NCBI GenBank assembly: GCA_902573015.1
Contig: CACGIE010000012.1
Span: forward strand, 1-35,978
Direction: 5' to 3'
Length of the DNA: 35,978 bases
DNA from: an uncultured Candidatus Poseidoniales archaeon
GTDB taxonomy: Archaea; Thermoplasmatota; Poseidoniia; Poseidoniales; Thalassarchaeaceae
Part shown: positions 4,920 to 18,937 of the stretch, piece by piece
Layout: each line of letters begins with the position of its first letter
How positions within the stretch are numbered: the first letter of the stretch is position 1
Translations under genes and position numbers: made by a program
The notes under the pieces: model-generated
What the model saw: only the letters and a program-made list of their open reading frames with translations
Told to the model about the DNA's origin: nothing
The model's database searches: none

Positions 4920-6602
4920 GTGCCAGTATTCCTGGAACCTTCTCTTACCAGATTTAGCGTCAAACTCAGAGAGGATATTCATGATTGGTCAGAAGAACTG
5001 ACAGTAGACCTCGAGGAGTTCCCTTGCTCCATTCTGACAGGCATTAACGCCAGTGGAAAAACACTGTCGATGGGCGTGTTGCACCAATTATGCGACTTGC
5101 TAGTCGATTATGACGAAATCAAGAAAGAGAGACTAACAAATTTAGCGTTACAGGCAGGAATCGAGGAGGTCCGCGTCAGATTCGAGTATGAATGGTACTC
5201 TTCCGAGAGAGAGGAATCTTCGAAACTGTTCTGGTTTGGACTCAAAGAGGACATCTCCGGATACAATAGCCCGGAGGAACTTCAACAATCTTCTACTGAT
5301 TCCGAGACCTACAGGCGTCGCCTAGGTTCAGACCTTGTGGAAAAAGATGTTCGGTATGGCTCGCGAAGTCTTAACAGCAGAATAATTATTGATTTTGAGG
5401 CCAAGGCCATACGCAACCCAGACGACTCGTTTGATGGCGAATTACAACTCTCGCGAAGAGACGGGATATCATTCGATGTTCATCAGAGGATTTCAATATC
5501 TGAACCCCGCGGTCATCACGAGCCAGGCACAATTGCGACAATACCTACACCACGTTTTGAGGGACGAACCTTCAGAGAAGTTATCCTTGAAGATGAATTC
5601 AGGCTTTGCGCAACCGAAGATCTCCATGTCAGCGGCTTTGGCCCAATGAGGCTTTCAAAATCTTCGAAATCGAATGACTTCGCTGGAGACGCATGGAGGG
5701 AGATTCTGAGAGAAAGGACTGGAATTGCCTTCGATTACATGGATTACGCAGGGGAGGATTACTTTTTCGAAGATCCGAACATCATGCTTTCTTTCAAACC
5801 AATCTCTACAAGACTGTTGACCGTAGAAGGAGCATACAAGATCGACGAGGATACCAGGAAGGACTTGGAACGTGACATCTACCCCTTTTTCGCTCCGAGG
5901 GGTGAACTTTCAGTTAACCTCCTTATGGAGGCAATTTGGACCGAGCTCGTAAAGAAGCACAGAATGGAGTTTTCATTTAGGCGCCTCTGTGATGATCACC
6001 GCCCCACCGAAAGAGAACGGCAAGAAGCAATGGAAGATTGGTCGGAAGCCCTGGATCTGGGCTCCTCAATTGATGAAGAAGAATTTAGAGAGAGATATTG
6101 CACTACCTTGGCGATTTTTGAGATGTACGGTGTTAATTACAGTTACGATCACGGTCTCGTGGACTTCGAGGATGTACCAGCGGGCAAGTTCCATTGGGAT
6201 GACTTTGGCCCAGAGCCGATACCATTCGACGAGCAAACCTTAGAATACGAGATGCCGGAAAAAGCAAGAACTCTCCTAATAGAGAGTAGTCGAGAATTTG
6301 CTCTGTTCCACTCGCTCTCCAGGTTCCTTCCCTTCATTCACGAAATAATCCCCGAACACTTCTCCTCCGGACAGAAGCGACTGATCAACCTCCTCCTCGA
6401 TATCTCACTCTCCCCAGATGGATCTACGATCCTGATTGACGAACCCGAACTATCCATGCACATAGATTGGCAGGAAAAAATGGTTAGCTCCTTGATAGAA
6501 AGCTTCCCAAAACACAAATTCATCCTTGCAACGCATGCTCCTAGCATGGTAAAAGACCACCATGACTTGATTTTCTCGGTACCCCCAAGTGGTGAGACAT
6601 GA
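4920..6602 (+). CDS. ABC/OLD-type ATPase, PARIS AriA-like
   Basis: A 560-residue ATPase starting at a GTG. Walker A is GINASGKT (about residues 41-48). An ABC-type signature SSGQKRLINLLL lies near 481-492. Walker B with the catalytic glutamate is TILIDEPELSMH near 501-512, and the switch segment ILATHAPSM follows. The long insertion between these motifs is acidic. The next gene overlaps this stop by four bases and encodes a DUF4435 protein. In the known PARIS anti-phage system an ATPase (AriA) of this kind holds a DUF4435 effector (AriB) and releases it when a phage inhibitor of host defence is sensed. Assignment rests on this pairing. Another OLD-like or RecF-like ATPase with a partner nuclease remains possible. 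Confidence 0.72.
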   Translation: MPVFLEPSLTRFSVKLREDIHDWSEELTVDLEEFPCSILTGINASGKTLSMGVLHQLCDLLVDYDEIKKERLTNLALQAGIEEVRVRFEYEWYSSEREESSKLFWFGLKEDISGYNSPEELQQSSTDSETYRRRLGSDLVEKDVRYGSRSLNSRIIIDFEAKAIRNPDDSFDGELQLSRRDGISFDVHQRISISEPRGHHEPGTIATIPTPRFEGRTFREVILEDEFRLCATEDLHVSGFGPMRLSKSSKSNDFAGDAWREILRERTGIAFDYMDYAGEDYFFEDPNIMLSFKPISTRLLTVEGAYKIDEDTRKDLERDIYPFFAPRGELSVNLLMEAIWTELVKKHRMEFSFRRLCDDHRPTERERQEAMEDWSEALDLGSSIDEEEFRERYCTTLAIFEMYGVNYSYDHGLVDFEDVPAGKFHWDDFGPEPIPFDEQTLEYEMPEKARTLLIESSREFALFHSLSRFLPFIHEIIPEHFSSGQKRLINLLLDISLSPDGSTILIDEPELSMHIDWQEKMVSSLIESFPKHKFILATHAPSMVKDHHDLIFSVPPSGET

Positions 6603-7339
6603 CCAAAATACCCAGACTATTGGAGCAATTGAATGAGCCTTGGTGGGGCCCTACCATAGGGAAATTCTCATCCGGGAAAGCAGAACGCTTCCTGGTCTAC
6701 GTCGAGGGTGGTTTCGATGTACAATTCTTCCGTAGATCGGTATCAAGAACCATCAAAGAGAGAGTAGAGTTCAGGATCGCGGGCGGAAAAGACCAGGTAA
6801 TTGCTCTGGTCAAGAGGGACGACAAATCCTTCGGAGTCGTGGATATGGACTTCGATTTCAAAGATCACCAAATCGATCAACTTCCAATTATAGCTACAAA
6901 CTCTGATTGCTGCCTTTTCTGGAAACTTGTTCGTGAAATAGAAGGCGGAGAATTACAAGGCCTGATCACCAAGATCGTTAACAGATACGCCACTAATGGC
7001 GAGGCTCAACAGATGCATAACAGGATCCACAATGATCTCTCAGAAATAGTGGGCCAAATGGAAAAAGCGACCATTGAGAGGCTTTTTCGAGGGCATCATC
7101 GTGAAAAAGGGGGGGAGATCTCACATTTCGAGAAACATTTCAGCGAGCAAATCAACAAAGCAGGAATCAACGATCATGACTTCGAAGAATCGATCAAGAA
7201 CCTGTTCGAAGAGTTCGGCTCTAACATCGAACCGTATCAAATCCGATCTCAAATAAAAGAACATCTTCTGTCACCGGAGCACGCTGTAAAGAGCTCAAAA
7301 AGAGAGAAAATAGCGAACCGTTTTCTCAAACAACTGTGA
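6599..7339 (+). CDS. DUF4435 (TOPRIM-like) effector, PARIS AriB-like
   Basis: A 246-residue protein whose ATG overlaps the stop of the ATPase gene (ATGA), so the two are translationally coupled. The N-terminal half shows the TOPRIM-like layout of DUF4435: RFLVYVEGGFDVQFF (about residues 31-45) supplies the conserved glutamate, and FGVVDMDFDF (about 79-88) supplies the acidic DxD. The C-terminal half is charged and helical. In PARIS, AriB is the toxic nuclease unleashed by AriA; cleavage of host tRNA has been reported for the bacterial protein. The substrate of this archaeal relative is unknown. I cannot tell whether the pair belongs to the neighbouring mobile region. Confidence 0.7.
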   Translation: MTKIPRLLEQLNEPWWGPTIGKFSSGKAERFLVYVEGGFDVQFFRRSVSRTIKERVEFRIAGGKDQVIALVKRDDKSFGVVDMDFDFKDHQIDQLPIIATNSDCCLFWKLVREIEGGELQGLITKIVNRYATNGEAQQMHNRIHNDLSEIVGQMEKATIERLFRGHHREKGGEISHFEKHFSEQINKAGINDHDFEESIKNLFEEFGSNIEPYQIRSQIKEHLLSPEHAVKSSKREKIANRFLKQL

Positions 7340-7555
7340 TCACTCGTCGCAGTGACATTGCGCGCACAAGAAGTACATCCCAGGCATGGCGGAGCTCTCC
7401 ATCCCGCACCATAATTTCCCACGTTCTAAGGATTTCAAATCCACGTCATTGTGATATGGAATTTCCCTCCCGCAACCGCCTCCTACGGCGCTCAGTAGAA
7501 CCTCGCTTTTTCCAGAAACAGGGATGCTGCTCCCAAGCGAGCCGTCGTCCTTCAC
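7340..7555 (-). CDS. Possible small zinc-binding protein, perhaps truncated
   Basis: The frame ends tail-to-tail with the DUF4435 gene and gives 71 residues from a GTG. The C-terminal half looks real: a CG pair, then GKLWCG, then MPGMYFLCAQCHCDE, a plausible metal-binding ribbon. The reading frame continues upstream of the GTG with a coding-like stretch (KCPGQWGRVV) to a stop near 7597 without any good start codon. It may therefore be the 3' part of a gene cut off at about 7600, where the next module begins. Family unknown. Confidence 0.4.
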   Translation of the reverse strand: MKDDGSLGSSIPVSGKSEVLLSAVGGGCGREIPYHNDVDLKSLERGKLWCGMESSAMPGMYFLCAQCHCDE

Positions 7556-7613
7556 GACTCTGCCCCACTGGCCTGGACATTTGGCGTTTTCGTGAACTCA
7601 TATACTCTGAGAG

Positions 7614-7628
7614 AACTTGCAATTATTG
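7614..7628 (+). promoter_or_regulatory. AACTTGCAA promoter-like motif, copy 1
   Basis: AACTTGCAA, then TTATT, then a G at 7628 as possible transcription start. The predicted leader carries AAGGAG and reaches the ATG at 7651. It is the leftmost copy of the ten-copy motif and may mark the left limit of the module. Confidence 0.65.
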
Positions 7629-7650
7629 TATCAAAAAGGAGTTGGAAAAA

Positions 7651-8262
7651 ATGAGAAGGAAGGTGGATTCGAGAACAGTATGGTCCCTAACGGCGATCAG
7701 GAACGGCAAGCAAGAGAATGCAGATGAGATTGAGAATGCTCAGTTCTACTACGGTAGGTGGCAATCAGAGGTTGATGGCTCTAGGCCCAAGAGACTCCCA
7801 AGCGGACTAATTGGGGTGATATGTGAATCCGGGATGGAACAAACTGCCATGGAGTCGGGTTTCGTAATCTCGATGAGTGTCTCTCCAGAAAATCGTGATT
7901 ACTGGACACGTTTCGTCTCCACAATCACGGTCAGGGAAATGGACAGCAGGCTCTTCCACGATACTCGGACACTTTTCTCTAGAGATGGGGGCGATATGGA
8001 CACAATCGAGTTCGTGGACCTGTTCAATCCATGTGCAGGTGGCATGCGCATGCCGAACAAAATATGGATGAGGGTAGACGAGCTCCCGATGAGCTCAATC
8101 GGATGGGCGATGAGTTCGGGTCTGATGGATGGTGAGAAGAGCAGGCAGACCGACCTCAGCAGGTGGATTGGGAAGCCGAAGGACAACGAGGTCATCCCCA
8201 AGGACATATTGGCGCTGCCAGGGCCTCCCAGCAGGGCGTACTCATTCGATGACACCGACTAG
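7651..8262 (+). CDS. Hypothetical protein convergent with the RNA polymerase
   Basis: A 203-residue protein of unknown family. The start is set at the ATG at 7651 because AAGGAG lies about ten bases before it and the promoter-like motif lies 37 bases before it. The frame is open further upstream, but that part would read through the motif and looks non-coding. The protein begins with a basic stretch and has mixed alpha/beta composition (SGLIGVICESGM, FVISMSVSPENRDYW, MDTIEFVDLFNP), with no membrane segment or metal motif. Its last bases overlap the end of the polymerase gene by four bases tail-to-tail, so transcription of one could affect the other. Confidence 0.7.
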   Translation: MRRKVDSRTVWSLTAIRNGKQENADEIENAQFYYGRWQSEVDGSRPKRLPSGLIGVICESGMEQTAMESGFVISMSVSPENRDYWTRFVSTITVREMDSRLFHDTRTLFSRDGGDMDTIEFVDLFNPCAGGMRMPNKIWMRVDELPMSSIGWAMSSGLMDGEKSRQTDLSRWIGKPKDNEVIPKDILALPGPPSRAYSFDDTD

Positions 8263-11200
8263 CTGATTAGGTAGTCCCCAGCGGTCCTTCCGGACTTTTC
8301 GGGGTCTTTCCAGAGAGAGCCTATCTTGACCCTACTTGTCTTCTTCTTGCCGACCCACTTCATCTCTGCGGTCCAATCGTTCAGGCTCCTTCCCTGGTGC
8401 ATATCGAAGAATACGGATTTCACTATCTCCCTCATCAGGTCGATGTCGCATGCATGGGTCCCGAAGGCATCGTGGACCGCCCAGAAGCTCAGATGGTCGT
8501 CCTCGCTCATCATCGTCCTCATCCTGTTTATCGAGGTCCTCATGTGGTATGCGTCGAGGGAGTGGACGAAGTTGGGGGGCATCGAGGAGTTCATCTTCCT
8601 CTTCCTTCCCTTCACCCTCTCCTTCTCGAATTTGCTGTAGTTTGGTATGGAGTACTCCCTCTGCCTCATTAGCCCTAGTATCTCTTTGGCCTCTTTGCTA
8701 TCTCCTCCGGCCTGTCTGACGATCGTCTCGAAACGAAGGCTCTCGAAATTGAACCTCTTCCCCTTTTCCAGTATTCTGTCTTTGGCGTCCCTCAGGAACT
8801 TCCTTGCCTCGGGCGCCAGTGATTCGTCCTCTTCGTACAGCTCGCAAGCCCTGAGTGCTATCCTCGCCTTGCTTTTTCCACCTTTGTGCCCCATCCAATT
8901 ATTCTTCTTGTACCAATCTGGTAGCAGACCGCTGTAGACGGAGCCGATGTGGGTTGGCTTCCCTGCCTTGGTCTTGTCAGCCCCATCCCGGCCGATGTAG
9001 TACTGGTGAACCCTGAAGCTCCCCTCATCCCCTGGCATGACGTCCCAGTACACGCCGGGCCAGAGCGCCGGCTTGCATGCCTCCGTAACTGCCCCGAGGG
9101 CCTCCTCGAGCTTTCCGTAGGCGTCTCTCGTCGCCTTGCCTATCGCCTTCATCATGATGTCCTTCATCAGAAGAGAGAGGCCGTGCTGATGCTCCCATAG
9201 ACTACCGTCAGGGTAGGCGAAGAGCTCGGCCAGATCGCCCCCTTTCGCAATTATCGCATCGTGGAGCCCGCTTCCCTGTGCCCAGAGGTTCACTGGCACC
9301 TCATCCCTGAGTAGCTTGGCCCACTTGTCGGCTCTCCCCTTCGAGAAACCACTTCCTACCTTCTTCTTGGCATGCTGCTGGTAGTGACTGACGGGCAGTC
9401 TCTCACCCAGTCTCCTCGCCTCTACAAATTCCAGATACGCCTCCTCGAACTCGACTGTTATCTCCTTCCTCTCGGCCTCCTCCTCCTCGCTGAGAACTCT
9501 AGGGAGCGGCATCGAGAAGTCAGGCCTGCCCTGTCCCTTCCTTCCCTCAAGGCACTTCAGCATGTCATTGCTGCCATAGACCCTGACGATTGTGGGTTGC
9601 TTTGCCAGGCTCCTAGTGAAGATCTTCTCTAGGCACTCCTCTATCAGGGACTCCTTGACTCCTATCTCCCCGAGGAACTCGCGAATCTTGTCTCTTCCGG
9701 CCTTATCCGCCTCCTTAGCCACCTCCGAGTACAGATCCAGTGGGCCCCTTCCCGAGTCGATGACGTTCGTGAGTCTGGCGAGCCTGACGTCACCTAGAAG
9801 CGAGGCCACGTGCTGGTAGCCATTGCAGGACGCATCGAGATAGACGGGCTGGCCGCTCTCGATGCTCTCCCACCCCTCGCCCTCGCCTCTTTCGAACTCG
9901 GACCACACCCTGTCCAGCTCGATAAGTGAGGCTAGCCTCTGGAAGTCAGTCCTCTTGCTGTACATCCTCTGGTCCAGTCCCAGTTCTACCAGGTACTGAT
10001 CCGGATGCCTGCCAATCTCCCTGAGTAATTTGAGGTTCTCTGTCACCCATTCGTCCCTGTACTCAAATTTCTGGTTCTTCTTGGCAGGGCCACTCTTCCA
10101 CCTCGAGGAGCGATTTCCGCCGTCATCAGGCTTGTCGAGGACCTCGATGCCCTCCATCAGGTTGTGGACATGGACATGGAACCAGAACCTGCCCCTCTCC
10201 CCCATGGGTTTCCATTCCTTGAAGCGCAATAGTGCTCTGCTAAGATCTCCCTTCTGCGGGCTTAGCAGCTGGCACCTCGGTACCATCCTCCCTCTGAAGT
10301 CGCACATCCAGGAGTGCCAGAAGACGTTCCCATTGTGTTCGATTATCCTCCTGCACCACTCGAGTACCATTCTCCTCTCGACATCGCCATTGTCCCCCTT
10401 CCCATCGAAGAATGCGGGTTCAAAAACCCCTTTTGGCATGATTCTCTTTATCCTGTCCTCCTTGTCCACCAGTCCGCCATCCAGGACAGTACCTCCGTCC
10501 ATCTGGAAACTGCAAACCTTCTCCAAAAGGTCTAGGTTGATTTCCCATTGGGTTTCTTGCAGTGTATTCATAGCCCTCATGATGTCGACTCCAGGCACGC
10601 ATCTCACGGTCTTGGCCATCTTCGGAACATCTCCTCCCATCTCTACCTCTCCCGTCTCGAGGTTCCTGACCTCCACTTCGAACATCTCGTAGTCACTTGT
10701 GTTGCTCGATATCTTGCGATCCCTCAGTAGCCCTCCAGCCCTGATTCCGCCCAACCACTCGTGCTTGTCCGGGGGGCAGTACATCCACCTATCTCTATCG
10801 CCTCTGAGCCATCTGTAGATGGCATTCTGGCGACCTTCCTCGAAGTCCTCCATTTTCGACTTCCCAATTATATCCTCGAGCTTCTTGGTGAACACGAGGT
10901 TGTTTGGGTATGGCTTTGGGCCCCTGCTCTTCGCCAGGGATTCGTCACCATCGAGGTAGTAGGACGTGTATTGCGCTGGAGTCATCTTCGCCGGGCGCAG
11001 TAGGCGCTCCCTCTTCATCTCGATAATAATGTTGTAAACGAACTTGAGGGTGTTGTGTTCATTGCATTCTTCGACGTTCTTGCTCTTCCCTACTCCTTGC
11101 AGGCTCCCGAATCCCTTGTTCCTGAATCTCTCCAGGGCCTCTTCTTCTTCTTCCTCCAAAGCGAACTTCTTCTGATCAAGACCCGCTTCCTTCCTCTTCT

Positions 11201-12461
11201 TCTTGTCGCCATATATCTCCAAAGCCTTGGCTCCCTCGCTCTCGATGTGCCTCCTAACTCTGGTCCTGACGTCTGGGAAGAAATTGATCCCAGCAGCCCA
11301 CACAAACATCCATCTCCACTCCCTCGGAGGCTCGACTTCCTCATCCAACAGTTTGGCTATCGTCATTCTGATTCGCTTCCTGTGGTGGAGGACGCTGAGG
11401 TTGGCCCCCATCCTCTCACGGTGTTTCTTGATCCTATCACGATCGATTTCACCCGTCTTACTGTCCGCGAAGTCTTCGGTGAATTCCTTCCTGGCCCTTT
11501 TTGCAGACACGAAGCACCCATTTGCCTTTGCGAACTCGAATAGCTGCTTCCCCTCGTTCACGTCCGAGCGCCATTCGAAGACCTCCCTATCTTCAGCCAT
11601 GGTGTTCGAAGAGTGGGAAATCAGGCACCTGGCCACCTCGTTGGCGACCTTCTCGACCACGTTCATCCTCCCATCCATCTTCCACCAATCCTCCAAGTCT
11701 ATCGATTGGTGGAACCCCTTGTCGAGCTGATCGAGGTGGAAGTCCCGCGCACTGGGTTCCAACCTGCCATTGATCTTCCGGATAACCGAAAGCTGCCTCC
11801 CCTCCATGCATTTGGTGGAACCAATTATCCTTTCATCGATTATCTCCTCTATCTTCTTCCGCACCCTCTCCCATGATTCGAGTGCCTCCTCTCTCTCCTC
11901 GTTTCTGTCCTCGTTCGAGAGGAACTTCGGGGAGGCCTCTCCTGCCGCGGCCTCCTCCACCTTGTCCTGTATCCAGGTTTTGAACTCGAAGTGCCCTGGG
12001 GTAAGGTCAGACTCCTCCCTGAGCCTGATTCTCGCCGGCTCGTCGTCTATCGACTTGGTCCTGTTGTCATTTTTGTCGTAGAAACCGATCTTCCTGAGCC
12101 TCGAGCTCTTCCATGTTCTCCAACCTCGTGATGCCCCCTTCGGTGGGGGAAGCCTCTTGCCCCGTTCGTAATTCCTGGAGAAGTAAGATCCGATCTTGTC
12201 CCTGTTAGTCGAAGCCTCGGGTTCAAACTCATCCTCTTCTTTTATCGGATCCTCATAGTCTACGTAGACCCCTTGCTTATTCGTGTAACTGAGCCTCAGT
12301 CTCGTCGAAGCGCCACATTCTCCACACTTCCTCACAGAGTCCCATTTGCTGTACACCTTACCCTTCTTCTTAGCATTCTTCGGTAGCGATAAGGAGACTT
12401 CGAATTTGTAGTCGCAGCGCCAGCAGACTATGCCATGGGTTCTGGACGTTTTCCCCGCCAT
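8259..12461 (-). CDS. Single-subunit (T7/mitochondrial-type) DNA-directed RNA polymerase
   Basis: A 1400-residue protein carrying the key polymerase motifs of the single-subunit family. Motif A is LDASCNGYQHVASLL with the metal-binding Asp876 (T7 Asp537). Motif B runs RSLAKQPTIVRVYG, with Arg950, Lys954 and Tyr962 at the same spacing as T7 Arg627, Lys631 and Tyr639. MPPNFVHSLDAYHM matches the T7 segment PNFVHSQDGSH. Motif C is VHDAFGTHACD with Asp1331 (T7 Asp812). The tyrosine in motif B is the residue that favours ribonucleotides in this family. The N terminus adds a zinc ribbon (Cys13, Cys16, Cys46, Cys49) and about 650 residues I cannot assign. At 1400 residues it is much longer than T7 polymerase (883) and nearer in size to mitochondrial enzymes. 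It is expected to transcribe the element's genes. Its own gene has a host-like TATA box and no AACTTGCAA motif. All catalytic residues are present and the frame is intact. Confidence 0.95.
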   Translation of the reverse strand: MAGKTSRTHGIVCWRCDYKFEVSLSLPKNAKKKGKVYSKWDSVRKCGECGASTRLRLSYTNKQGVYVDYEDPIKEEDEFEPEASTNRDKIGSYFSRNYERGKRLPPPKGASRGWRTWKSSRLRKIGFYDKNDNRTKSIDDEPARIRLREESDLTPGHFEFKTWIQDKVEEAAAGEASPKFLSNEDRNEEREEALESWERVRKKIEEIIDERIIGSTKCMEGRQLSVIRKINGRLEPSARDFHLDQLDKGFHQSIDLEDWWKMDGRMNVVEKVANEVARCLISHSSNTMAEDREVFEWRSDVNEGKQLFEFAKANGCFVSAKRARKEFTEDFADSKTGEIDRDRIKKHRERMGANLSVLHHRKRIRMTIAKLLDEEVEPPREWRWMFVWAAGINFFPDVRTRVRRHIESEGAKALEIYGDKKKRKEAGLDQKKFALEEEEEEALERFRNKGFGSLQGVGKSKNVEECNEHNTLKFVYNIIIEMKRERLLRPAKMTPAQYTSYYLDGDESLAKSRGPKPYPNNLVFTKKLEDIIGKSKMEDFEEGRQNAIYRWLRGDRDRWMYCPPDKHEWLGGIRAGGLLRDRKISSNTSDYEMFEVEVRNLETGEVEMGGDVPKMAKTVRCVPGVDIMRAMNTLQETQWEINLDLLEKVCSFQMDGGTVLDGGLVDKEDRIKRIMPKGVFEPAFFDGKGDNGDVERRMVLEWCRRIIEHNGNVFWHSWMCDFRGRMVPRCQLLSPQKGDLSRALLRFKEWKPMGERGRFWFHVHVHNLMEGIEVLDKPDDGGNRSSRWKSGPAKKNQKFEYRDEWVTENLKLLREIGRHPDQYLVELGLDQRMYSKRTDFQRLASLIELDRVWSEFERGEGEGWESIESGQPVYLDASCNGYQHVASLLGDVRLARLTNVIDSGRGPLDLYSEVAKEADKAGRDKIREFLGEIGVKESLIEECLEKIFTRSLAKQPTIVRVYGSNDMLKCLEGRKGQGRPDFSMPLPRVLSEEEEAERKEITVEFEEAYLEFVEARRLGERLPVSHYQQHAKKKVGSGFSKGRADKWAKLLRDEVPVNLWAQGSGLHDAIIAKGGDLAELFAYPDGSLWEHQHGLSLLMKDIMMKAIGKATRDAYGKLEEALGAVTEACKPALWPGVYWDVMPGDEGSFRVHQYYIGRDGADKTKAGKPTHIGSVYSGLLPDWYKKNNWMGHKGGKSKARIALRACELYEEDESLAPEARKFLRDAKDRILEKGKRFNFESLRFETIVRQAGGDSKEAKEILGLMRQREYSIPNYSKFEKERVKGRKRKMNSSMPPNFVHSLDAYHMRTSINRMRTMMSEDDHLSFWAVHDAFGTHACDIDLMREIVKSVFFDMHQGRSLNDWTAEMKWVGKKKTSRVKIGSLWKDPEKSGRTAGDYLIS

Positions 12462-12483
12462 GATTGCCCATCGGTATTGTTGA

Positions 12484-12490
12484 CATAAAA
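12484..12490 (-). promoter_or_regulatory. TATA-like box of the RNA polymerase gene
   Basis: On the minus strand TTTTATG lies about 23-29 bases before the polymerase ATG at 12461, the normal archaeal spacing for a leaderless transcript. No AACTTGCAA motif points at this gene. This suggests the host RNA polymerase reads it. Confidence 0.5.
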
Positions 12491-12496
12491 CTACTC

Positions 12497-12511
12497 AACT
12501 TGCAAATTTAG
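12497..12511 (+). promoter_or_regulatory. AACTTGCAA promoter-like motif, copy 2
   Basis: AACTTGCAA, then ATTTA, then a G at 12511. It lies in the divergent region between the polymerase gene and the plus-strand operon, 47 bases upstream of copy 3. The two may act as a tandem promoter for the gene at 12592. Confidence 0.6.
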
Positions 12512-12543
12512 ACTGGATACTCGTCAAAAATCTCCAGAAAATA

Positions 12544-12558
12544 AACTTGCAATTAATG
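12544..12558 (+). promoter_or_regulatory. AACTTGCAA promoter-like motif, copy 3
   Basis: AACTTGCAA, then TTAAT, then a G at 12558. The predicted transcript would begin with GAGGT, as would that of copy 7. The G is the first base of a perfect hairpin. Confidence 0.68.
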
Positions 12559-12577
12559 AGGTGGGCTTGCCCACCTC
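12558..12577 (+). promoter_or_regulatory. Perfect 9-bp hairpin at the predicted 5' end of the operon mRNA
   Basis: GAGGTGGGC and GCCCACCTC pair perfectly around a two-base loop (TT); a real RNA would open one or two pairs. The stem starts exactly at the proposed first transcribed base and ends 14 bases before the ATG at 12592. It could protect the 5' end or act as a regulator-binding site. Confidence 0.55.
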
Positions 12578-12591
12578 AAGGATGTGAGAAA

Positions 12592-13059
12592 ATGAAAGAT
12601 GGAAATGATATGGATAAAAACGGCAGTGTCGTGCTGCCAGAACTAACAGATGATGACAGAGACAGGGCTGAGAGCGAGGATAACTTGGCGTGGGCATATA
12701 GCCTGATGGAGTGGTACTCCCATGGAGCAGTGCACAAAGCGGAGGACCTTGGTTTGGTCTTCCAGGTGATAAAGGACCCAGAGTCGGACGAGTGTGGAAT
12801 CCGGGTCCTCTCCGCCTTTGAGGCTGAAACCTGCCTCACGTTCCTAGCCATGTTGGAGAGGACCTTCGTAAAGGCCCACTACAAGGTCGAAATAGAGCCC
12901 TACTTAGTTCTCCGTCCCTACACGCCGGCACCAGCCCACTCGCCCAGCTTCATGGTCGAAGAGCAAAATCGCGAGGATGAAGAGAACCCTCGGGAAGTGA
13001 GTGCTTCTGAGTCGCCTAAGGGGGGTACTGAGAGGCCAATAGCGATGGAGGTGGTCTAG
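12592..13059 (+). CDS. Hypothetical acidic protein, first gene of the ubiquitin-like module
   Basis: A 155-residue protein from the ATG at 12592. An in-frame TTG at 12547 lies inside the promoter-like motif and is unlikely to be used. The sequence is strongly acidic at both ends. The middle looks folded and helical (NLAWAYSLMEWYSHGAVHKAE), followed by VLSAFEAETCLTFLAMLE and a beta-rich HYKVEIEPYLVLRPY. The last 40 residues look disordered. No family is recognised. The next gene starts directly after its stop, so they form one operon; a GGAGGTGG just before this stop serves the next gene. Confidence 0.65.
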   Translation: MKDGNDMDKNGSVVLPELTDDDRDRAESEDNLAWAYSLMEWYSHGAVHKAEDLGLVFQVIKDPESDECGIRVLSAFEAETCLTFLAMLERTFVKAHYKVEIEPYLVLRPYTPAPAHSPSFMVEEQNREDEENPREVSASESPKGGTERPIAMEVV

Positions 13060-13305
13060 ATGCAGACAACAAAGAGCGAAGATGGTGGCACACCCCTCCC
13101 CCCCGAATCCAACCAGGATGGCGTAGGGACAGGGAAGGCCGTCCACCCGAATGCATACCACTCCGAGGCCTGCATGTCCTCGAGACAGGATGGGACGAGG
13201 TACTGCGGCTGGCTTTTGCATGGTCATCCATGGTGTGGGACCCACGGGCACCAGTGCGAAGACCTAGAACCCGAGGAGCCCGATATGAAAGGGAGGGGGC
13301 CGTGA
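13060..13305 (+). CDS. Small Cys/His-rich hypothetical protein
   Basis: An 81-residue protein beginning immediately after the previous stop, with GGAGGTGG about seven bases upstream of the ATG. The first third is polar and probably disordered. The middle contains regularly spaced metal ligands (HPNAYHSEACMSS, then YCGWLLHGHPWCGTHGHQCED), which suggests a small zinc-binding fold. Its stop overlaps the next start by one base. Function unknown; position suggests a component of the same operon. Confidence 0.6.
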   Translation: MQTTKSEDGGTPLPPESNQDGVGTGKAVHPNAYHSEACMSSRQDGTRYCGWLLHGHPWCGTHGHQCEDLEPEEPDMKGRGP

Positions 13306-13634
13306 TGTGGATCTTCACCACAAGCGGGTTCCTGAGCATCGTACAGCACAAGGACGCAGATGGGCACTTCCAGATCAAATCGAGAGTGAGAGTGCCTCTC
13401 GAGGTGCTCTGGCCGGACCACGAGATCATGGAGATAGGCTGGGCCGACTACAGATACAGGATAAACATCAGGAAGGACGACGCTATTCCCGTGTTAGTCG
13501 AGGAGATCAGGAAGGTCCTCTACACCAGCTTCAAGGACGAGTGCAGGGAGGACGAGGACTATCACCACGCCCTGTCTAGGGTCTGGTCCACGATGTACAA
13601 CTTCCAGACTCTCTGTGAGGGCAGGCGCCAATGA
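13305..13634 (+). CDS. Small conserved protein of the MW-x-FT...GF-S-V-V type
   Basis: A 109-residue protein. The start at 13305 is chosen because the ATG overlaps the upstream TGA by one base and follows GGGAGGGGG; the longer frame from 13230 would overlap the preceding gene. The N terminus MWIFTTSGFLSIVQHKD and the later IKSRVRVPLEVLWP, YRYRINI and YTSFKDECREDEDYHHALSRVWSTMYNF follow the pattern of a small uncharacterised family that I recognise from many bacterial genomes, with a beta-rich first half and helical end. No catalytic role is known to me. Confidence 0.65.
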   Translation: MWIFTTSGFLSIVQHKDADGHFQIKSRVRVPLEVLWPDHEIMEIGWADYRYRINIRKDDAIPVLVEEIRKVLYTSFKDECREDEDYHHALSRVWSTMYNFQTLCEGRRQ

Positions 13635-14563
13635 GGGAACTTGCAAGTGGGACGATGAAGATTGAACCACTTGATTCGGAACTGTACCAAGACGCGACCA
13701 CTGGGAGCTGGTTGCAGAGGGGCGGGTCCAGAATCGGGAAACCAGACGAGATAGACACCTCTGTACACGGAGAGTCCCCTAGGGAGAAGGCTCTGAGGAG
13801 ACAGGCCGTCACAGAGACGCTAGCCCCGCTGGACTTGCTTATCCAGATGCCACCTCCCGAACTGAGGGGTCTCGAACTCCTCCTCGACGTCCTCTCCTCA
13901 TGCGAGTCATTTCGCGTCACCTCAAGAGGGGGCGGCCTGGTAATCTGCAGACTCGACGAGGATGTGGATATCGAGATTCGAGTCGAGTACATGATAAGGG
14001 CGAGGCTCGAGATTCCCTGGGAGGGAAACGACTCTCTTAGCGGACTGCGCCCTCCCAACGATTTGCATCTGGCTTGCTCCATGCAACTAGTCGACAGCGA
14101 GTCAAGATGGCTGGCGGTGAATAACCACGGGAAGGATCGGGTAAGGGTGTGCCTGAGTAGCTACTACAGACTCTCTCCCGCAGAAGGCCGGAGGTGGGAT
14201 TGGGAGGAATATGACCTCCAAATCGAACTTGGTCAAGGGCCTTGGATGGAGGATCCTAGAACCGGGTTGTCGGTTCCAGATCTCGCTGCTCTCCTCCCTG
14301 TTACTGACTCCATCGTGTCATGGGCCCTCTGGGCCCAGTCCGGTTTCCCAAACCCCCCGGAATCGTTCATACTCGCCTACGAGCAACTGACCTCTCCCTA
14401 CGCATTCGATGGGTGCCTGCCAGAGTACATGACGGATGAGAACGGCTGGGAACCGTGGGACGACGAGTTCCAACAATCCATTTTCTGGGAGAGGCTTCTG
14501 GAGTCGGGGACCAGAGCCAGGAGGCACCCACAAAGAACTTGCAATGTCAGTGTCAGTGGTTGA
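13631..14563 (+). CDS. Unknown protein, possible E2-like (UBC/RWD) partner A
   Basis: A 310-residue protein whose ATG overlaps the previous stop. A second ATG at 13655 sits nine bases after an AACTTGCAA motif, so both starts may be used. Features that recall an E2 fold are a hydrophobic beta region (VDIEIRVEYMIRARLEIPW), then HGKDRVRVCLSSYYR with a candidate catalytic Cys174 seven residues after a histidine, then a helix SIVSWALWAQSGFPNPPESF that resembles the segment after the E2 active site. The next gene is a relative, sharing RGL-x-LL-x-VL near the start and VTD...WA-x-SGF. An E2 is expected in an operon with E1, ubiquitin-like and JAB genes. This is inference: no HPN box or proline-rich YP-x-x-PP loop is clear. 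Confidence 0.7.
   Translation: MRELASGTMKIEPLDSELYQDATTGSWLQRGGSRIGKPDEIDTSVHGESPREKALRRQAVTETLAPLDLLIQMPPPELRGLELLLDVLSSCESFRVTSRGGGLVICRLDEDVDIEIRVEYMIRARLEIPWEGNDSLSGLRPPNDLHLACSMQLVDSESRWLAVNNHGKDRVRVCLSSYYRLSPAEGRRWDWEEYDLQIELGQGPWMEDPRTGLSVPDLAALLPVTDSIVSWALWAQSGFPNPPESFILAYEQLTSPYAFDGCLPEYMTDENGWEPWDDEFQQSIFWERLLESGTRARRHPQRTCNVSVSG
13638..13646 (+). promoter_or_regulatory. AACTTGCAA motif, copy 4 (weak context)
   Basis: The nonamer lies at the very start of the gene at 13631, nine bases before an in-frame ATG at 13655. The following bases (GTGGG) are not AT-rich and the sixth is A, so it lacks the other promoter features. It may be a weak internal promoter or a coincidence. Confidence 0.3.
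14536..14550 (+). promoter_or_regulatory. AACTTGCAA motif, copy 5
   Basis: The nonamer runs into the ATG at 14544 (its last A is the A of ATG), inside the end of the preceding gene. A G does occur six bases on at 14550, but the five intervening bases (TGTCA) are mixed. If transcription begins at that G, translation would need a downstream GTG or ATG. Confidence 0.4.
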
Positions 14564-15353
14564 GGAATCGGTAGAAGAGAGAAGGCGGATGAACGAGTGG
14601 ATGGCCATCGAGGCCAACTTGGCCTCGGAGGATCTGAGGGAGATGATGCCCAGGGAGGAATGGAGGGGGCTCACGCTTTTGGTCAGCGTGCTGCACTCCT
14701 CGAAGGCATGCACCTCCATCGAGAGGGGGCGCATCGTGGCTCTGTATGACAGGGAGGTCGAGGTAGTCCTGATGTTCGAGTCGATGCTGATCAGGCGCAT
14801 AGACTGGCTAGCAGCCAACTCCAGTACTAACCCGCTGGTAAAGCCAGATTGCCACTTGCAAATCATCGTCAGGAGGAGATCGACAATGGCTGGACGGATA
14901 CTCCATCCGCATGAGAGGGACCTATGGAGCACCTCCCCGTGCATCGTAGCCACCGGTGCCGAGGGGCTGCCAGTGACGGACCTAGCCTCCTCCTTCGTAC
15001 TATGGGCTGACTCCGGTTTCCAACGTGAGCCCGAGACCCTGGTGGAGCAGGTCGCTTTAGTCAAGGGACCCGAGTCGTACGAAGAATTCCTCGAGGATAA
15101 GAAGCGCAGGGACAGGGAAAAGCGGCGCAGCCTCGAGAATCTCAGGAGGCGGTCCGTGATGGAAGCCACAAGGAGGCACCACGAGGAGGAGGGAAGGCGA
15201 CTCCTCCAAGACGAACTGGACCGAATCAGCGCCATGGGCTGGAGGGAGTTGATTCAGATGGAGAGGGATCTCTCAAATTCCCCCTGGGGGGTGAACCAGA
15301 GCATCAGGGCCGCGTCACAGGCGATATTGTATCCAGAGGAGAGAGAGATATGA
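14544..15353 (+). CDS. Unknown protein, possible E2-like partner B with coiled-coil tail
   Basis: A 269-residue protein overlapping the previous gene by 20 bases. It is a relative of that protein: EWRGLTLLVSVLHSSKACTS and VTDLASSFVLWADSGFQREP match its RGLELLLDVLSS and VTDSIVSWALWAQSGFPNPP. An E2-like reading is possible: strands VEVVLMFE and CHLQIIVRRR, then HPHERDLWSTSPCIV with candidate Cys133, then the helix. The last 90 residues, from LEDKKRRDREKRRS onward, are highly charged and likely coiled-coil. The longer upstream frame is rejected because it would lie inside the previous gene. No Shine-Dalgarno sequence is visible. The next ATG (15350) overlaps its stop. Confidence 0.7.
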   Translation: MSVSVVEESVEERRRMNEWMAIEANLASEDLREMMPREEWRGLTLLVSVLHSSKACTSIERGRIVALYDREVEVVLMFESMLIRRIDWLAANSSTNPLVKPDCHLQIIVRRRSTMAGRILHPHERDLWSTSPCIVATGAEGLPVTDLASSFVLWADSGFQREPETLVEQVALVKGPESYEEFLEDKKRRDREKRRSLENLRRRSVMEATRRHHEEEGRRLLQDELDRISAMGWRELIQMERDLSNSPWGVNQSIRAASQAILYPEEREI

Positions 15354-15409
15354 TTCGGGAGTTCAAATACTTAGCATCCACAATTAGAAACATCGAGGAG
15401 GTACGGATT

Positions 15410-15631
15410 ATGGAAAACGACAGAACAACCACCACGGTCGAGATCGCTGACCAGTCCGGGCACTCCACGCTGCAACTGACGAAGGAAGAGACTCTCGAGA
15501 GAGTCTCGGACTCGCCAGGAGCGTGGGTCTTCGCAAACAACCAGATGGTACAACCCGGACAGCTGCAGAATGCTGACTGGGGCACCATTGGTACTGTGAG
15601 GATTGTGCCCGGTCTCGTTGGCGGGGCTTGA
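15410..15631 (+). CDS. Ubiquitin-like protein 1, ends Gly-Gly-Ala
   Basis: A 73-residue beta-grasp protein from the ATG at 15410, which follows GAGGTACGG; an in-frame ATG at 15350 overlapping the previous stop would add 20 residues. The order of elements matches ubiquitin: strand TTVEIADQSG, strand STLQLTK, helix start ETLERVS, then WVFANNQMVQPGQL at the place of LIFAGKQLEDGRTL, then GTVRIVPGLVGG at the place of LHLVLRLRGG. The C terminus is Gly-Gly-Ala, so one residue must be trimmed before E1 could activate it. A JAB protease in the same cluster could do that. A near-identical paralogue follows. The start choice is supported by alignment with that paralogue. Confidence 0.88.
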   Translation: MENDRTTTTVEIADQSGHSTLQLTKEETLERVSDSPGAWVFANNQMVQPGQLQNADWGTIGTVRIVPGLVGGA

Positions 15632-15665
15632 GCTACCATTAGGTGACGGATTGATGAAGACCCAT

Positions 15666-15686
15666 TGGGGGGAAGTACCCCTCCCA
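15666..15686 (+). terminator. GC-rich hairpin after ubiquitin-like gene 1
   Basis: TGGGGGG pairs with CCTCCCA-type sequence (six Watson-Crick pairs and one G-T) around a seven-base loop. It lies 35 bases after the stop and 15 bases before a promoter-like motif. No T-run follows, so termination is a guess. Confidence 0.4.
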
Positions 15687-15700
15687 TACGGGATATATGA

Positions 15701-15715
15701 AACTTGCAATTTAAG
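15701..15715 (+). promoter_or_regulatory. AACTTGCAA promoter-like motif, copy 6
   Basis: AACTTGCAA, then TTTAA, then a G at 15715. It lies 67 bases upstream of copy 7 and points at ubiquitin-like gene 2. Confidence 0.65.
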
Positions 15716-15767
15716 AGCAAAGAAATAATTAAACACCTGTGATGCGTAGCATTTACTCCGCAAAAAT

Positions 15768-15782
15768 AACTTGCAATTATTG
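15768..15782 (+). promoter_or_regulatory. AACTTGCAA promoter-like motif, copy 7
   Basis: AACTTGCAA, then TTATT, then a G at 15782. The predicted transcript starts GAGGT, as for copy 3, and reaches the ATG at 15826 after 44 bases that include GGAGGT. Confidence 0.68.
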
Positions 15783-15825
15783 AGGTAAACAAATGATAGA
15801 ACATTCGAGAGAAGGAGGTAACCAT

Positions 15826-16044
15826 ATGGACACAGAGATAACGACAACTGTCGAGATCGCTGACTCCACCGGGCACACCACCTGCCAGATGACGAAGACT
15901 GAGACCTTGGAGAAGGTCTCTCAGTCACCTGGCGCGTGGGTCTTCGCGGGTGGCCAGATGGTGCAATCCCAGCAGCTGGAAACAGCAGACTGGGGCACCA
16001 TAGGCACCGTGAGAATAGTACCTGGTCTGGTCGGCGGCCTGTAG
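15826..16044 (+). CDS. Ubiquitin-like protein 2, ends Gly-Gly-Leu
   Basis: A 72-residue paralogue of the preceding ubiquitin-like protein. AAGGAGGTAACC before the ATG at 15826 fixes the start; the in-frame ATG at 15793 would add 11 residues. It keeps the ubiquitin plan: TVEIADSTG, ETLEKVS, WVFAGGQMVQSQQL (compare LIFAGKQLEDGRTL), GTVRIVPGLVGG. It ends Gly-Gly-Leu, again needing removal of one residue. It has its own promoter-like motifs, so the two paralogues could be made in different amounts or at different times. Candidate conjugation lysines are few (two), which may limit chain formation. Confidence 0.88.
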   Translation: MDTEITTTVEIADSTGHTTCQMTKTETLEKVSQSPGAWVFAGGQMVQSQQLETADWGTIGTVRIVPGLVGGL

Positions 16045-16048
16045 ACAG

Positions 16049-16063
16049 GCACCCAACGGGTGC
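16049..16063 (+). repeat. Short perfect hairpin after ubiquitin-like gene 2
   Basis: GCACCC and GGGTGC pair perfectly around AAC, five bases after the stop codon. With the larger stem at 16083 it forms a structured 3' end. Confidence 0.4.
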
Positions 16064-16082
16064 TGACGGAATTACGTAGAAT

Positions 16083-16109
16083 GGGATGGGTTACCCGATT
16101 ACCCATCCC
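16083..16109 (+). terminator. Perfect 9-bp hairpin before copy 8 of the motif
   Basis: GGGATGGGT and ACCCATCCC pair perfectly around a nine-base loop and are followed by CTTTG. It separates ubiquitin-like gene 2 from the next promoter-like motif, as in the other two hairpin-motif joints. Confidence 0.5.
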
Positions 16110-16151
16110 CTTTGAAACGTCCTGGATATGATGTGAAACTATCCAAAGACA

Positions 16152-16166
16152 AACTTGCAAATTAAG
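16152..16166 (+). promoter_or_regulatory. AACTTGCAA promoter-like motif, copy 8
   Basis: AACTTGCAA, then ATTAA, then a G at 16166. That G is the first base of GTGATGAAAATG, so the transcript would carry only a three- or nine-base leader before an ATG. Confidence 0.65.
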
Positions 16167-16168
16167 TG

Positions 16169-17380
16169 ATGAAAATGAACAAAGATAACAACGTGGCCAT
16201 CGGTTGGGCCTGCAGGTCCCTCGAAGAGAGAGAGCTCTTCGGTGAAGGGCCGAACAAGAACGGAGGAGGCCCACATGAGTGTACAGAGGAGTCAATGTGC
16301 TCCTGGTGCAGTATGAAGGAGGAAACCATGGGAAAGTGCCTAAGATGCGGGGGGTTCACAGGCCTCGACTCCTTGTTCGATGATGATGGGTGGAGAAAAT
16401 CAGGTTTTGAGAAGCCGTCTGCAACCTGCTGCGAATATTTCGAAATGAGCGATGAAGAATGGGAGGCATGCAAAGAAATACAGTTGCTAGACAGAGAAGA
16501 CAGAAGGAAAAGAGCGGAAAAGGAATACCTAGAGGACGGGATCGCCCTAATTGGGAGCTTGAAGCACCCATCTCTAGATGCCCACAACAAGTCCATCGAT
16601 CTGTGCATCTCATCCTTGACTGACATATTCAACTCGGGAGAGCCAAGTTATCAGAACTGCCTAGAATCGCATAAAATCCTCGGAGTCGCTGGGAGTCCAC
16701 CAGTATATGCGCGCTCAATCATCAGTGTGCATGAAACTACTACCGACTATCAGAGGAACGATGGCGAAATGCGTATGGAAATCTCGTTCAGAGGAAAGGA
16801 GTCGGGCATAACATACAGGGTCGAACTAATCTATGCCCGTAACAATGCCAAACATCTGGCATCTCGTATAGACGAGGTCTTGGACGCGAACTCCTCATAT
16901 CCAGTCTCGGACGGTGTTCTGAAAGGCTTCATCAAGGCCACCGATTTCTTGAGGTTCCAGGTCAGCAGAGTCTCGAACGGAGGTGGGTGGGATTACCTAT
17001 GCATAGACCCGGGCGAGGATTTCGGTTTGTGGCCGGGAGATAGCGTGGCCGCGCTCCTAATGTGCCTCCACGATGACCTTAACACGGCTCTGGAGCCAGC
17101 GATGTACACTCTCAGAGGAGGTCTCAAAGAAGCGAGCAAGATGGCCTTCCTGAAGGGGAGATCCAAACTATCGATCCATAGGCTGATGGCATACGAGGTG
17201 GCGTACAACAGCATCAGGTCAGCGACATCTTCCATGCCCGCTGATGAGGTCTATGCACTGGTCTCTAGAATAAAGGAGAAGTTCTCAGATCCAGACTACG
17301 CTAGAGATAGACCGCCTGCCGAGGTCGATTACGGGTTGTTGCAGGAAGAGGCATGGGAAGGTGAGTGGAATGGCCATTGA
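16169..17380 (+). CDS. Unknown protein with N-terminal Cys cluster, in the ubiquitin-like operon
   Basis: From the ATG at 16169 the protein is about 403 residues; a GTG at 16166 and an ATG at 16175 are also in frame. Near residues 31-58 a likely zinc site is present (HECTEESMCSWC and CLRCGG). The middle is helical and charged. Around residue 270 the segment YLCIDPGEDFGLWPGDSVAALLMCL has a Cys before a W-x-P-G and a helix, loosely like an E2 active site. The same pattern recurs in the 641-residue protein at 20425-22350, so it is more likely a separate shared domain. The E1 gene start overlaps its end by 11 bases, which implies a linked function. Confidence 0.72.
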   Translation: MKMNKDNNVAIGWACRSLEERELFGEGPNKNGGGPHECTEESMCSWCSMKEETMGKCLRCGGFTGLDSLFDDDGWRKSGFEKPSATCCEYFEMSDEEWEACKEIQLLDREDRRKRAEKEYLEDGIALIGSLKHPSLDAHNKSIDLCISSLTDIFNSGEPSYQNCLESHKILGVAGSPPVYARSIISVHETTTDYQRNDGEMRMEISFRGKESGITYRVELIYARNNAKHLASRIDEVLDANSSYPVSDGVLKGFIKATDFLRFQVSRVSNGGGWDYLCIDPGEDFGLWPGDSVAALLMCLHDDLNTALEPAMYTLRGGLKEASKMAFLKGRSKLSIHRLMAYEVAYNSIRSATSSMPADEVYALVSRIKEKFSDPDYARDRPPAEVDYGLLQEEAWEGEWNGH

Positions 17381-18065
17381 AGCGGAAAAGAGAGAGTTCT
17401 CAGTAAACATCGTAGGCGCTGGAGGTATAGCCAGCTGGGTTTTGCACGGCCTAATCAGACCGGCCAGACGCTTCGCCCAAGTGACCGGCTCCAGTGTTAC
17501 CATCAGAGTATACGACTCTGACAGTGTGGATGACGACAACGTGCATCACCAGAACTTCCGACCATCAGACGTGGGTAAGACGAAGGTCGATGCACTATGC
17601 GGCGAGCTGTCAGAGTTCCAAGGCGATGAATTCTCCCTGGTCGCGTGCGAGTGGGACGTCAGAAGGGAGTCCGACTTCGAGGAAGCGGACCTGACCGTCG
17701 TCGCAGTCGACTCCCCGGACGCACGAGAGCTGGTCACCAAATCGAAGAAGTCGGGCAAGTGGGCAATCTGCACTTGCGCTGGCGACTCCTTCATGTTCCT
17801 GACCGAGGAGTCCTCCAAGCAGGCAGTCTCTATGGTCATAGAGAATGCCCAGAAGGGCGCCTCGTGCCAGTTACCCGGGGCGATATCCGAGGGTAAGATA
17901 GAGGCCGGAAACATGGCAGTCGCAGCAGTGGCACAGACCTGGGTCCTCCGCTCACTGAGAGGGATGTCAGGGGAGGAAGGGGCGAAGGTCCCGGTCTCTC
18001 GAGCGGAATCCACAGTCCTGGGGACTCTGGGAGTGCTGTCCGAAAGCGAGGGAGGGGGGATATGA
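17370..18065 (+). CDS. E1-like ubiquitin-activating (ThiF/MoeB-type) enzyme
   Basis: A 231-residue adenylating enzyme. The ATG at 17370 is preferred because AAGGTGAG precedes it; a GTG at 17361 is the alternative. The Rossmann ATP site is IVGAGGIASW (residues 14-23). The E1 signature follows: YDSDSVDDDNVHHQNF, then DVGKTKVDAL, supplying the Asp, Asn, Gln and Lys that position ATP and Mg. Candidate active cysteines are Cys166 in GASCQLPG and the pair in ICTCAGDS. The protein has only the adenylation domain, like prokaryotic E1 proteins in ubiquitin-like operons. It would adenylate the C-terminal Gly-Gly of the two ubiquitin-like proteins after trimming. The JAB gene overlaps its stop by four bases. 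Confidence 0.92.
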   Translation: MAIEAEKREFSVNIVGAGGIASWVLHGLIRPARRFAQVTGSSVTIRVYDSDSVDDDNVHHQNFRPSDVGKTKVDALCGELSEFQGDEFSLVACEWDVRRESDFEEADLTVVAVDSPDARELVTKSKKSGKWAICTCAGDSFMFLTEESSKQAVSMVIENAQKGASCQLPGAISEGKIEAGNMAVAAVAQTWVLRSLRGMSGEEGAKVPVSRAESTVLGTLGVLSESEGGGI

Positions 18066-18559
18066 TGCAGGCAGAAACCGACGTGACTCCTTTTCTACAC
18101 GACCCACTCGAGGTACAATCTGCTATCGGCTCTGGCAATCTGGGATCGAGAGTCCTCAAAGAGACCATCGCTGGACTGGCTAAAGAGTCAATGTGGCGGC
18201 AGCTATGGCTAGTCGCTGACTCCCTGTCCCGCGAGGTCAGCGTCCTGTTCGACAGGGACGGAAGGATATGGGTGGACATAGGGACGGCTGGACAAGTCAG
18301 GCTCAGCCCGCCGGTCGGTGCTACCATTCCATTCTCGCTCTGGATACACACCCACCCATGGGACGCGTACTGGAGTCAAACCGATCTCTCCACCCTCGCC
18401 TCCTACTCCAGGATTTTGGACAGCGCGCTGGTCCTCGGTCACGACCACATGAAGTCGACCACGAAGGCCGAGGGGGATTGCGAGAGACTAGGGCCAAGGG
18501 CGCCCCTGTCAGTTTGGACATCCGAGGAAGTGAGAACCTACGAAGAGGAGGGGGCCTAG
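18062..18559 (+). CDS. JAB/JAMM metalloprotease (deubiquitinase-like)
   Basis: A 165-residue protein with the JAMM zinc site: Glu58 (in SREVSVLF), then HTHPWDAYWSQTD, giving His96, His98, Ser105 and Asp108. The spacing between HTHP and Ser is one residue shorter than in Rpn11-type enzymes, a variation allowed in prokaryotic members. It probably removes the final Ala or Leu from the ubiquitin-like precursors or cleaves conjugates. Its ATG overlaps the E1 stop (ATGA) after a G-rich Shine-Dalgarno stretch, so the two are coupled. Confidence 0.9.
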   Translation: MMQAETDVTPFLHDPLEVQSAIGSGNLGSRVLKETIAGLAKESMWRQLWLVADSLSREVSVLFDRDGRIWVDIGTAGQVRLSPPVGATIPFSLWIHTHPWDAYWSQTDLSTLASYSRILDSALVLGHDHMKSTTKAEGDCERLGPRAPLSVWTSEEVRTYEEEGA

Positions 18560-18560
18560 C

Positions 18561-18800: not shown

Positions 18801-18937
18801 TTGAGAAGCCCCTTCAGGTACCGAAAACACACCCCCAAGGGCGACTTTCCGGGCAACCTTGAAGGGCCTCAATCCCGACGCTCGGAGTCCCGCTCCGTAG
18901 CGACCGAAAAACAATGGGAAAAAACAGAGGAGGAGTG
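18801..18937 (+). ncRNA. Possible structured leader before the TFB-like gene
   Basis: This GC-rich stretch has two pairings. CCCTTCAGG (18810-18818) pairs with CCTTGAAGGG (18857-18866) with one bulge. CGCTCGGAG (18879-18887) pairs with CTCCGTAGCG (18893-18902) with one bulge. Similar ACCGAAAA sequences follow the left arm of the first stem and the end of the second. It could be a leader, terminator or small RNA; pairing by eye only. Confidence 0.3.

Follow-up and report, generated by a model that had tools for sequence, protein, structure and literature searches.

Relays in which a host RNA polymerase makes an element's own polymerase, which then takes over transcription, are known mainly from bacterial viruses. 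A marine Poseidoniales archaeon carries, in a chromosomal island, a gene identified from its sequence as encoding a single-subunit RNA polymerase, which raises the question of which enzyme transcribes this gene and which transcribes its neighbours. The window, meaning the whole stretch of DNA analysed here (35,978 nucleotides), is one whole contig from this organism's assembly, which totals 1.08 Mb and is 63% complete. We consider it likely that a two-step relay operates at the locus, in which host transcription supplies the single-subunit polymerase and this enzyme reads the surrounding module from a motif of its own. Sequence and comparison with relatives (named below by G and L handles) support this reading through the polymerase family, a directional and island-restricted motif, a conserved TATA register and the lack of a perfect motif copy facing the polymerase gene. 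The gene itself is as follows.

8259-12461, minus strand: single-subunit (T7/mitochondrial-type) RNA polymerase, 1400 aa, recognised by profiles, catalytic residues and predicted structure.

By profile and predicted structure, the 1400-aa protein is a member of the single-subunit RNA polymerase family PF00940. It matches the Pfam RNA_pol model with E=2.2e-43 (149.1 bits, against a curated cut-off of 22) and the PHROG RNA polymerase profile with 2.6e-68, and profile comparison retrieves mitochondrial RNA polymerase (2.5e-61) and T7 RNA polymerase (1.3e-56). Residues D876, K954, Y962 and D1331 are invariant in all eight aligned sequences; we take D876 and D1331 to be the catalytic aspartates, and K954 and Y962 the catalytic lysine and tyrosine, of single-subunit RNA polymerases. 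The model of residues 420-1400 (mean pLDDT 66.5) has a predicted right-hand polymerase fold, and aligns with yeast mitochondrial RNA polymerase (8atw; Z 27.9, 492 residues at 3.7 Å) and T7 RNA polymerase (Z 26.2). The N-terminal extension is Cys-rich and zinc-ribbon-like. Phage relatives are distant: all 258 records fall below 60% identity and none covers 80% of the query, and the phage polymerases among the matches listed share about 25-30% identity over 24-35% of the query. A search with the single protein yielded no close relative in viral contigs or genome contigs; the later set of relatives' loci was found by an alignment-based search instead. PF00940 is present in 7/148 genomes of the family, 21/318 of the order and 7/389 of the phylum, the last seven all belonging to the same order, and was not found in any genome that is at least 90% complete in these three scans. 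No report of archaeal genomes encoding a single-subunit RNA polymerase was recognised in a literature survey of titles and the beginnings of abstracts, which included few subscription papers.

The island is delimited by comparison of the relatives' loci.

4867-22511, no strand: insertion relative to the empty site in G144, G131 and G132.

The sequences flanking this interval correspond to adjacent genes in these three genomes, which identifies the interval as an insertion; G147 and G140 carry different DNA at the same site. Three of the four host flanking genes are 95-100% identical to the G146 contig, and the fourth is 61% identical. A full S51 peptidase gene directly beyond the insertion (22512-23249) is just 63% identical to the S51 peptidase of G144, while a 77-aa stretch at 33451-33684 shares 91% identity with the C-terminal portion of the G144 protein; judged by sequence, the island might extend to about 33.4 kb, with the S51 peptidase gene replaced. 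The interval 23307-33354 holds further defence-like genes, namely a PbeA-like helicase, a HATPase protein, an Eco57I-type methylase and a T5orf172/MUG113 protein. At 4920-7339, directly adjoining the polymerase module, lies a PARIS-like pair consisting of an AriA-like ATPase (3.7e-17) and an AriB-like DUF4435 protein (2.2e-5). Among 19 window proteins, a subset of the open reading frames, none matched a structural gene in PHROGs. The island would appear to work like a T7 cascade, yet nothing seen here marks it as a phage. Rfam at gathering scores detected nothing but tRNAs in seven relatives, and the window gave two snoRNA matches, both below threshold.

The first step of the relay depends on the promoter of the polymerase gene.

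12484-12490, minus strand: TATA-like box TTTTATG (TTTATG at −28 of the polymerase ATG), at leaderless spacing and in the host register.

The preliminary description had noted TTTTATG at leaderless spacing before the polymerase gene, and the box does lie 22 nt upstream of the ATG at 12461. A host promoter matrix was built from 332 host upstream regions with the window contig excluded, and gene starts were called with a codon-usage gene caller, which gave a clearer host promoter signal than poorer starts. The matrix reads TT[C/G]A[A/T][A/G] with TT at −30/−29, a leaderless arrangement. TTNAWW starts at −30 or −29 in 24 instances among the 332 regions, compared with an average of 2.2 at each position farther upstream; TTTAWW is rarer and also peaks, at −29/−28 (5 matches versus 0.17 per position). 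This matrix places the polymerase box among the top 30% of host genes, but 13% of control windows score as well or better, for which reason the box was rejected as convincing by itself.

Its significance derives only from conservation across relatives. The pattern TTNAW[ATG] at −31 to −28 precedes 10/15 related polymerase genes, against 10/255 other windows of the same genes; it matches 3.6% of 4-nt control windows (107/2988) and occurs at −31 to −28 in 49/332 host genes. Of 23 polymerase frames available, 15 entered this count, the others being 5′-truncated (G170, G213, G171, G288a) or more phage-like or unclear (G296, G278, G316, G288b). Under a strict first-ATG rule the box precedes 9/15 genes, and the matches of G103 and L110 count solely if the start is GTG. 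Three later loci have the box in two cases, one of these at a GTG start. G140, G066a, G094, G185, G175 and L113 are without the box at the chosen start, and the matches are not all independent because the upstream sequences of G199 and G196 are identical in the part shown. Taken together, the host leaderless register and the retention of the box in relatives favour the host-type promoter that had been proposed for the polymerase gene.

The second step depends on the motif AACTTGCAA, which the preliminary description had reported in two copies facing the opposite operon; both are present, on the plus strand at 12497 and 12544, within the interval 12462-12558 that parts the polymerase gene from the plus-strand operon. 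The features relevant to this step are listed below, the candidate promoters having been located by motif search.

12592-15353, plus strand: divergent operon of proteins of unknown function (155, 81, 109, 310 and 269 aa), several with homologs beside related polymerases.
12497-12511, plus strand: AACTTGCAAATTTAG, putative element promoter 1, whose +1 is predicted to be the G at 12511; it lies directly against the host-type TATA/BRE in front of the polymerase gene.
12544-12558, plus strand: AACTTGCAATTAATG, putative element promoter 2, with the G at 12558 as its predicted +1.
12558-12577, plus strand: predicted 5′ leader hairpin GAGGTGGG-CTTG-CCCACCTC, starting at the predicted +1 (by folding).
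7614-7628, plus strand: putative element promoter before the 203-aa gene 7651-8262.
15701-15715, plus strand: putative element promoter, first of a tandem pair 5′ of the second Ubl gene.
15768-15782, plus strand: putative element promoter, the other copy of this tandem pair, with GAGGT and then ATG after it.
16152-16166, plus strand: putative element promoter before the 403-aa gene 16169-17380.
20343-20357, minus strand: putative element promoter ahead of the small gene 20067-20345 on the same strand.
13638-13646, plus strand: weak candidate, an exact 9-mer that lies at a gene start but has neither the A/T stretch nor the G.
14536-14544, plus strand: exact 9-mer over the ATG of gene 14544-15353, without A/T stretch.
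33385-33393, minus strand: exact 9-mer facing gene 32761-33354, outside the polymerase module; uncertain.

The pattern ACTTGCAA has 12 matches in the window where 0.66 would be expected, and none of 100 shuffles reaches 12. The pattern AACTTGCAAWWWWWG occurs seven times in the whole 1.08-Mb assembly, with all seven on the window contig between 7614 and 20357, and the reversed pattern, used as a control, has no match in the assembly. The 45-nt leader at 12558 folds with an MFE of −15.9 (z=−3.3). The AACTTGCAA-WWWWW-G sites resemble T7-type promoters, with an apparent recognition core, five A/T bases and a G at the expected start. The L023 homolog of gene 14544-15353 likewise has the motif at its start (5090, minus strand).

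A related motif recurs beside the polymerases of relatives. A table of 31 sites in six elements was compiled by eye from copies at or facing gene starts, omitting copies inside genes, the window site at 33385 and a single ACTTGCC site of L023 that faces the wrong way (4317, plus strand). When aligned, these sites show the core ACTTGCMA with A/T-rich sequence after it; position 14, numbered from the first A of ACTTGC, is G in 22/31 and a purine in 29/31. In the divergent regions, G occupies position 14 in all seven listed sites of the six elements; the list leaves out a second G140 site (2867), which also has G. The five related elements carry a slightly varied motif toward the divergent operon with G at the same place, and L110, L111 and L113, fetched once the rule was set, again direct the motif toward that operon (L109, L112 and L114-L122 were left out as repeats of loci already in the G set). 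These three loci are Poseidoniales-type polymerase elements in assemblies labelled Acidimicrobiaceae, Gammaproteobacteria and Chloroflexi, and their contigs are probably misbinned. The element variants are AACTTGCAA, TACTTGCCA, GACTTGCMA, AACTYGCCA, ACTTACCA and AACTTGCAACAA. An unbiased count of intergenic 9-mers returns the motif as the top repeat in three same-genus elements, with a flanking base that differs per element. For a looser pattern, the share of genome matches falling inside the element is 7/11 in G000, 5/11 in G140 and 3/7 in G146, and 0/16 in G178, whose element has another motif. A 5′ hairpin is found within 45 nt in five of the six elements, L111 having no clear leader hairpin; it begins at the predicted +1 G in the window, G140 and L110, and within 11 nt of the G in G146 and L113. 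The directionality of the motif, its A/T stretch and G start, its restriction to the island and its element-specific variants support its action as a polymerase-specific promoter. The earlier proposal that the element polymerase reads the neighbouring module is strengthened by the position of such directional, island-restricted sites in front of module genes.

The motif could also be an operator for an island-encoded repressor or activator, with the host polymerase transcribing everything, an explanation that we regard as unlikely. The core TTGCAA is palindromic in the window, ACTTGCAAGT forms a perfect palindrome both at 13638 and in G140, and motif copies lie close to starts. The argument from symmetry was rejected, since the core is non-palindromic in L023, L110 and L111 (TTGCCA, TTACCA). 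The sites are moreover directional, with the A/T stretch and the G at a fixed distance, and motif and single-subunit polymerase co-occur in six elements. No host TATA box lies at the proper distance from the predicted +1 of the seven sites, nor at −31 to −28 of the motif-driven genes at nine listed start positions (two of them alternative, one of these not a start codon).

The genes at or downstream of the motif introduce a further candidate reader.

15350-15631, plus strand: small protein ending GGA, proposed ubiquitin-like modifier 1; homologs near polymerases.
15793-16044, plus strand: small protein ending GGL, proposed ubiquitin-like modifier 2; homologs near polymerases.
17370-18065, plus strand: ThiF/E1-like adenylyltransferase (PF00899, E=7.6e-13).
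18062-18559, plus strand: JAMM/JAB-like protease candidate (HTHP...SQTD).
18914-19885, plus strand: TFB/TFIIB-like candidate with zinc ribbon and helical domains (Zn_Ribbon_TF; low-confidence model).

We propose that the module encodes a ubiquitin-like conjugation set. No Pfam Ubl model matches the two GG-ending module proteins; they are called ubiquitin-like on account of the GG tail, the E1 neighbour and the Ubl-E1 fusion in L062, where a 413-aa protein (7180-8421) carries two Ubl copies fused in frame to a ThiF domain (Ubl-Ubl-E1). Homologs of the GGA-ending protein occur in 11/24 loci searched and in 2/3 further loci. The ThiF protein matches PRTRC_ThiF with 3.8e-17 and 62.4 bits, below the NCBIfam cut-off of 144.75. 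The HTHP...SQTD signature is presumably a JAMM motif; the candidate itself has no Pfam match, and a homolog matches Prok-JAB at 0.037, below the cut-off. Homologs of Ubl, E1 and JAMM-like genes lie beside the polymerase in L023, L025, L051, L052, L053, L054, L057, L062 and L063 (a partial E1 in L063), and Ubl and E1 homologs do so in L110 and L111.

The TFB-like protein at 18914-19885 could offer an alternative route to the motif: the host RNA polymerase would read it through this factor, and the single-subunit polymerase would have another role, such as replication priming. The candidate combines a zinc ribbon (Zn_Ribbon_TF 0.0028, 17.6 bits, below the cut-off of 29) with helical domains (low-confidence model, pLDDT 53.7, Z ~8 to Brf1/TFIIB/cyclins), and its homologs adjoin the polymerases of L023 and L110. 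TFB-directed transcription starts about 25 nt downstream of its element, whereas motif-driven open reading frames begin as near as 8-12 nt past the predicted +1. No TFB-like homolog was found in L111, L113 or L028, whose contigs are incomplete; the L028 element shares the core motif. We judge this route improbable.

Equally slight is the probability that the polymerase gene is autoregulated, started by the host and then transcribed mainly by its own product, whether by readthrough or from the one-mismatch copy AATTTGCAA that faces it 47 nt upstream (12508-12500, minus strand): this copy replaces the C that is invariant in 31/31 tabulated sites, and four of the six elements lack one even when a single mismatch is allowed, the exceptions being the window and L111. 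The earlier statement that no motif faces the polymerase holds for exact copies of AACTTGCAA, of which there are none; AATTTGCAA is a shadow of the near-palindromic core TTGCAA.

The two-step relay would open with transcription of the polymerase gene by the host's archaeal RNA polymerase, together with TBP and TFB, from the leaderless TATA promoter (TTTATG at −28). The single-subunit polymerase would recognise AACTTGCAA, melt the A/T stretch that follows and start at the G of position 14, transcribing the divergent operon from the two tandem copies and the remaining module from five more. The anatomy of the locus suggests an early-late order. In a possible further step, polymerase bound at 12497 could occlude the adjoining TATA/BRE and limit its own synthesis. 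The first motif copy adjoins the TATA/BRE region of the polymerase gene in the window, G140 and L110 (the G140 box fails the TATA test), which suggests such a brake; this self-damping was absent from the preliminary description. Among the points that count against the relay are the relatives without a TATA box, the L023 site that faces the wrong way, the exact copies at 13638 and 14536 without the A/T stretch, and G146, where G occupies position 14 in just 2/5 tabulated sites.

In T7 and the Autographiviridae, a single-subunit RNA polymerase, itself a product of host transcription, uses short directional promoters composed of a core, an A/T melting stretch and a purine start. The island shares with this cascade an apparently host-made single-subunit polymerase, short directional promoters and a 5′ leader hairpin, and as a pattern the predicted host promoter for the polymerase is combined with dedicated promoters elsewhere. 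It differs in its archaeal host, its TATA-type first promoter, its location in a chromosomal island without recognised virion genes and its module, the proposed ubiquitin-like set. Mitochondrial RNA polymerase uses nonanucleotide promoters; it provides the best sequence and structure matches, and the promoter core of the window is about nine bases long, although the window polymerase belongs to a prokaryotic mobile island. Bacterial ubiquitin-like operons (PRTRC cassettes, Bil, the type II CBASS E1-E2) likewise have a GG-tailed small protein, a ThiF E1 and a JAMM-like gene. Unlike these, the window module is coupled to a dedicated RNA polymerase and has no recognised E2, and its E1 lies below the PRTRC cut-off and matches the PADLOC E1-E2 models weakly. 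It is possible, though doubtful, that a private polymerase keeps the ubiquitin-like module running once a virus seizes host transcription, in which case each island would hold a matched polymerase-promoter pair as an orthogonal T7-type system, perhaps for antiviral defence.

If the relay is correct, it would place single-subunit-polymerase transcription on an archaeal TATA/TFB promoter background and outside recognised phage, and would connect a proposed ubiquitin-like module of abundant ocean archaea with dedicated transcription. It would also provide a set of polymerase-promoter pairs, with promoters differing in one or two bases, making promoter recognition and co-evolution directly testable, and orthogonal expression parts for archaea.

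A second family of polymerase-bearing genomes, which we take to be Poseidoniaceae, has elements with motifs other than the window type. In G178, all three genome matches of YCACATAACACRTA lie in the element before small genes, with none in three other genomes; for CCYAYACTANAGGTY, shared by G181, G196, G199 and G213, all six matches in ten genomes lie in polymerase elements. The core of CCYAYACTANAGGTY is similar to the T7 promoter around its start site. In L052, L053, L054 and L057 a copy of CCYAYACTANAGGTY lies within about 10 nt 3′ of the polymerase stop, giving a layout with the polymerase gene in front and its promoter immediately behind; a TATA box precedes the polymerase in L052, L053 and L054, and the L057 contig ends short.

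An intron-containing tRNA lies 5′ of the polymerase gene in L052 (2345-2443), L053 (10535-10633) and L054 (46-144), adjoining it in the last two, which suggests that insertion is linked to tRNA. This position, together with the Poseidoniales hosts, is a likeness to Charybdis and other Poseidoniales mobile elements. According to the accessible part of their account, Charybdis elements are circles of about 4.6 kb with Poseidoniales hosts, some inserted at tRNA genes, and 'RNA polymerase' is mentioned there twice, in the introduction only (PMC12324425).

Conserved leaders are also present in these loci. The sequence GGCGCTG(T/A)AATCCCAGCATAGGAT is conserved before Ubl genes in L052 (11405-11510), in L053 and L054 near the Ubl gene, and in L057 (1967); it has no Rfam match at gathering scores, and a small hairpin precedes it in some loci. 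A second leader, GATAT..CGC.TGAA.GAT(A/G)TCCA.GT.GGTGCAAAG.C, is conserved in L051 (~12250-12300), ahead of the first gene of the module in L053 and L054, and in L057, and is possibly a structured RNA.
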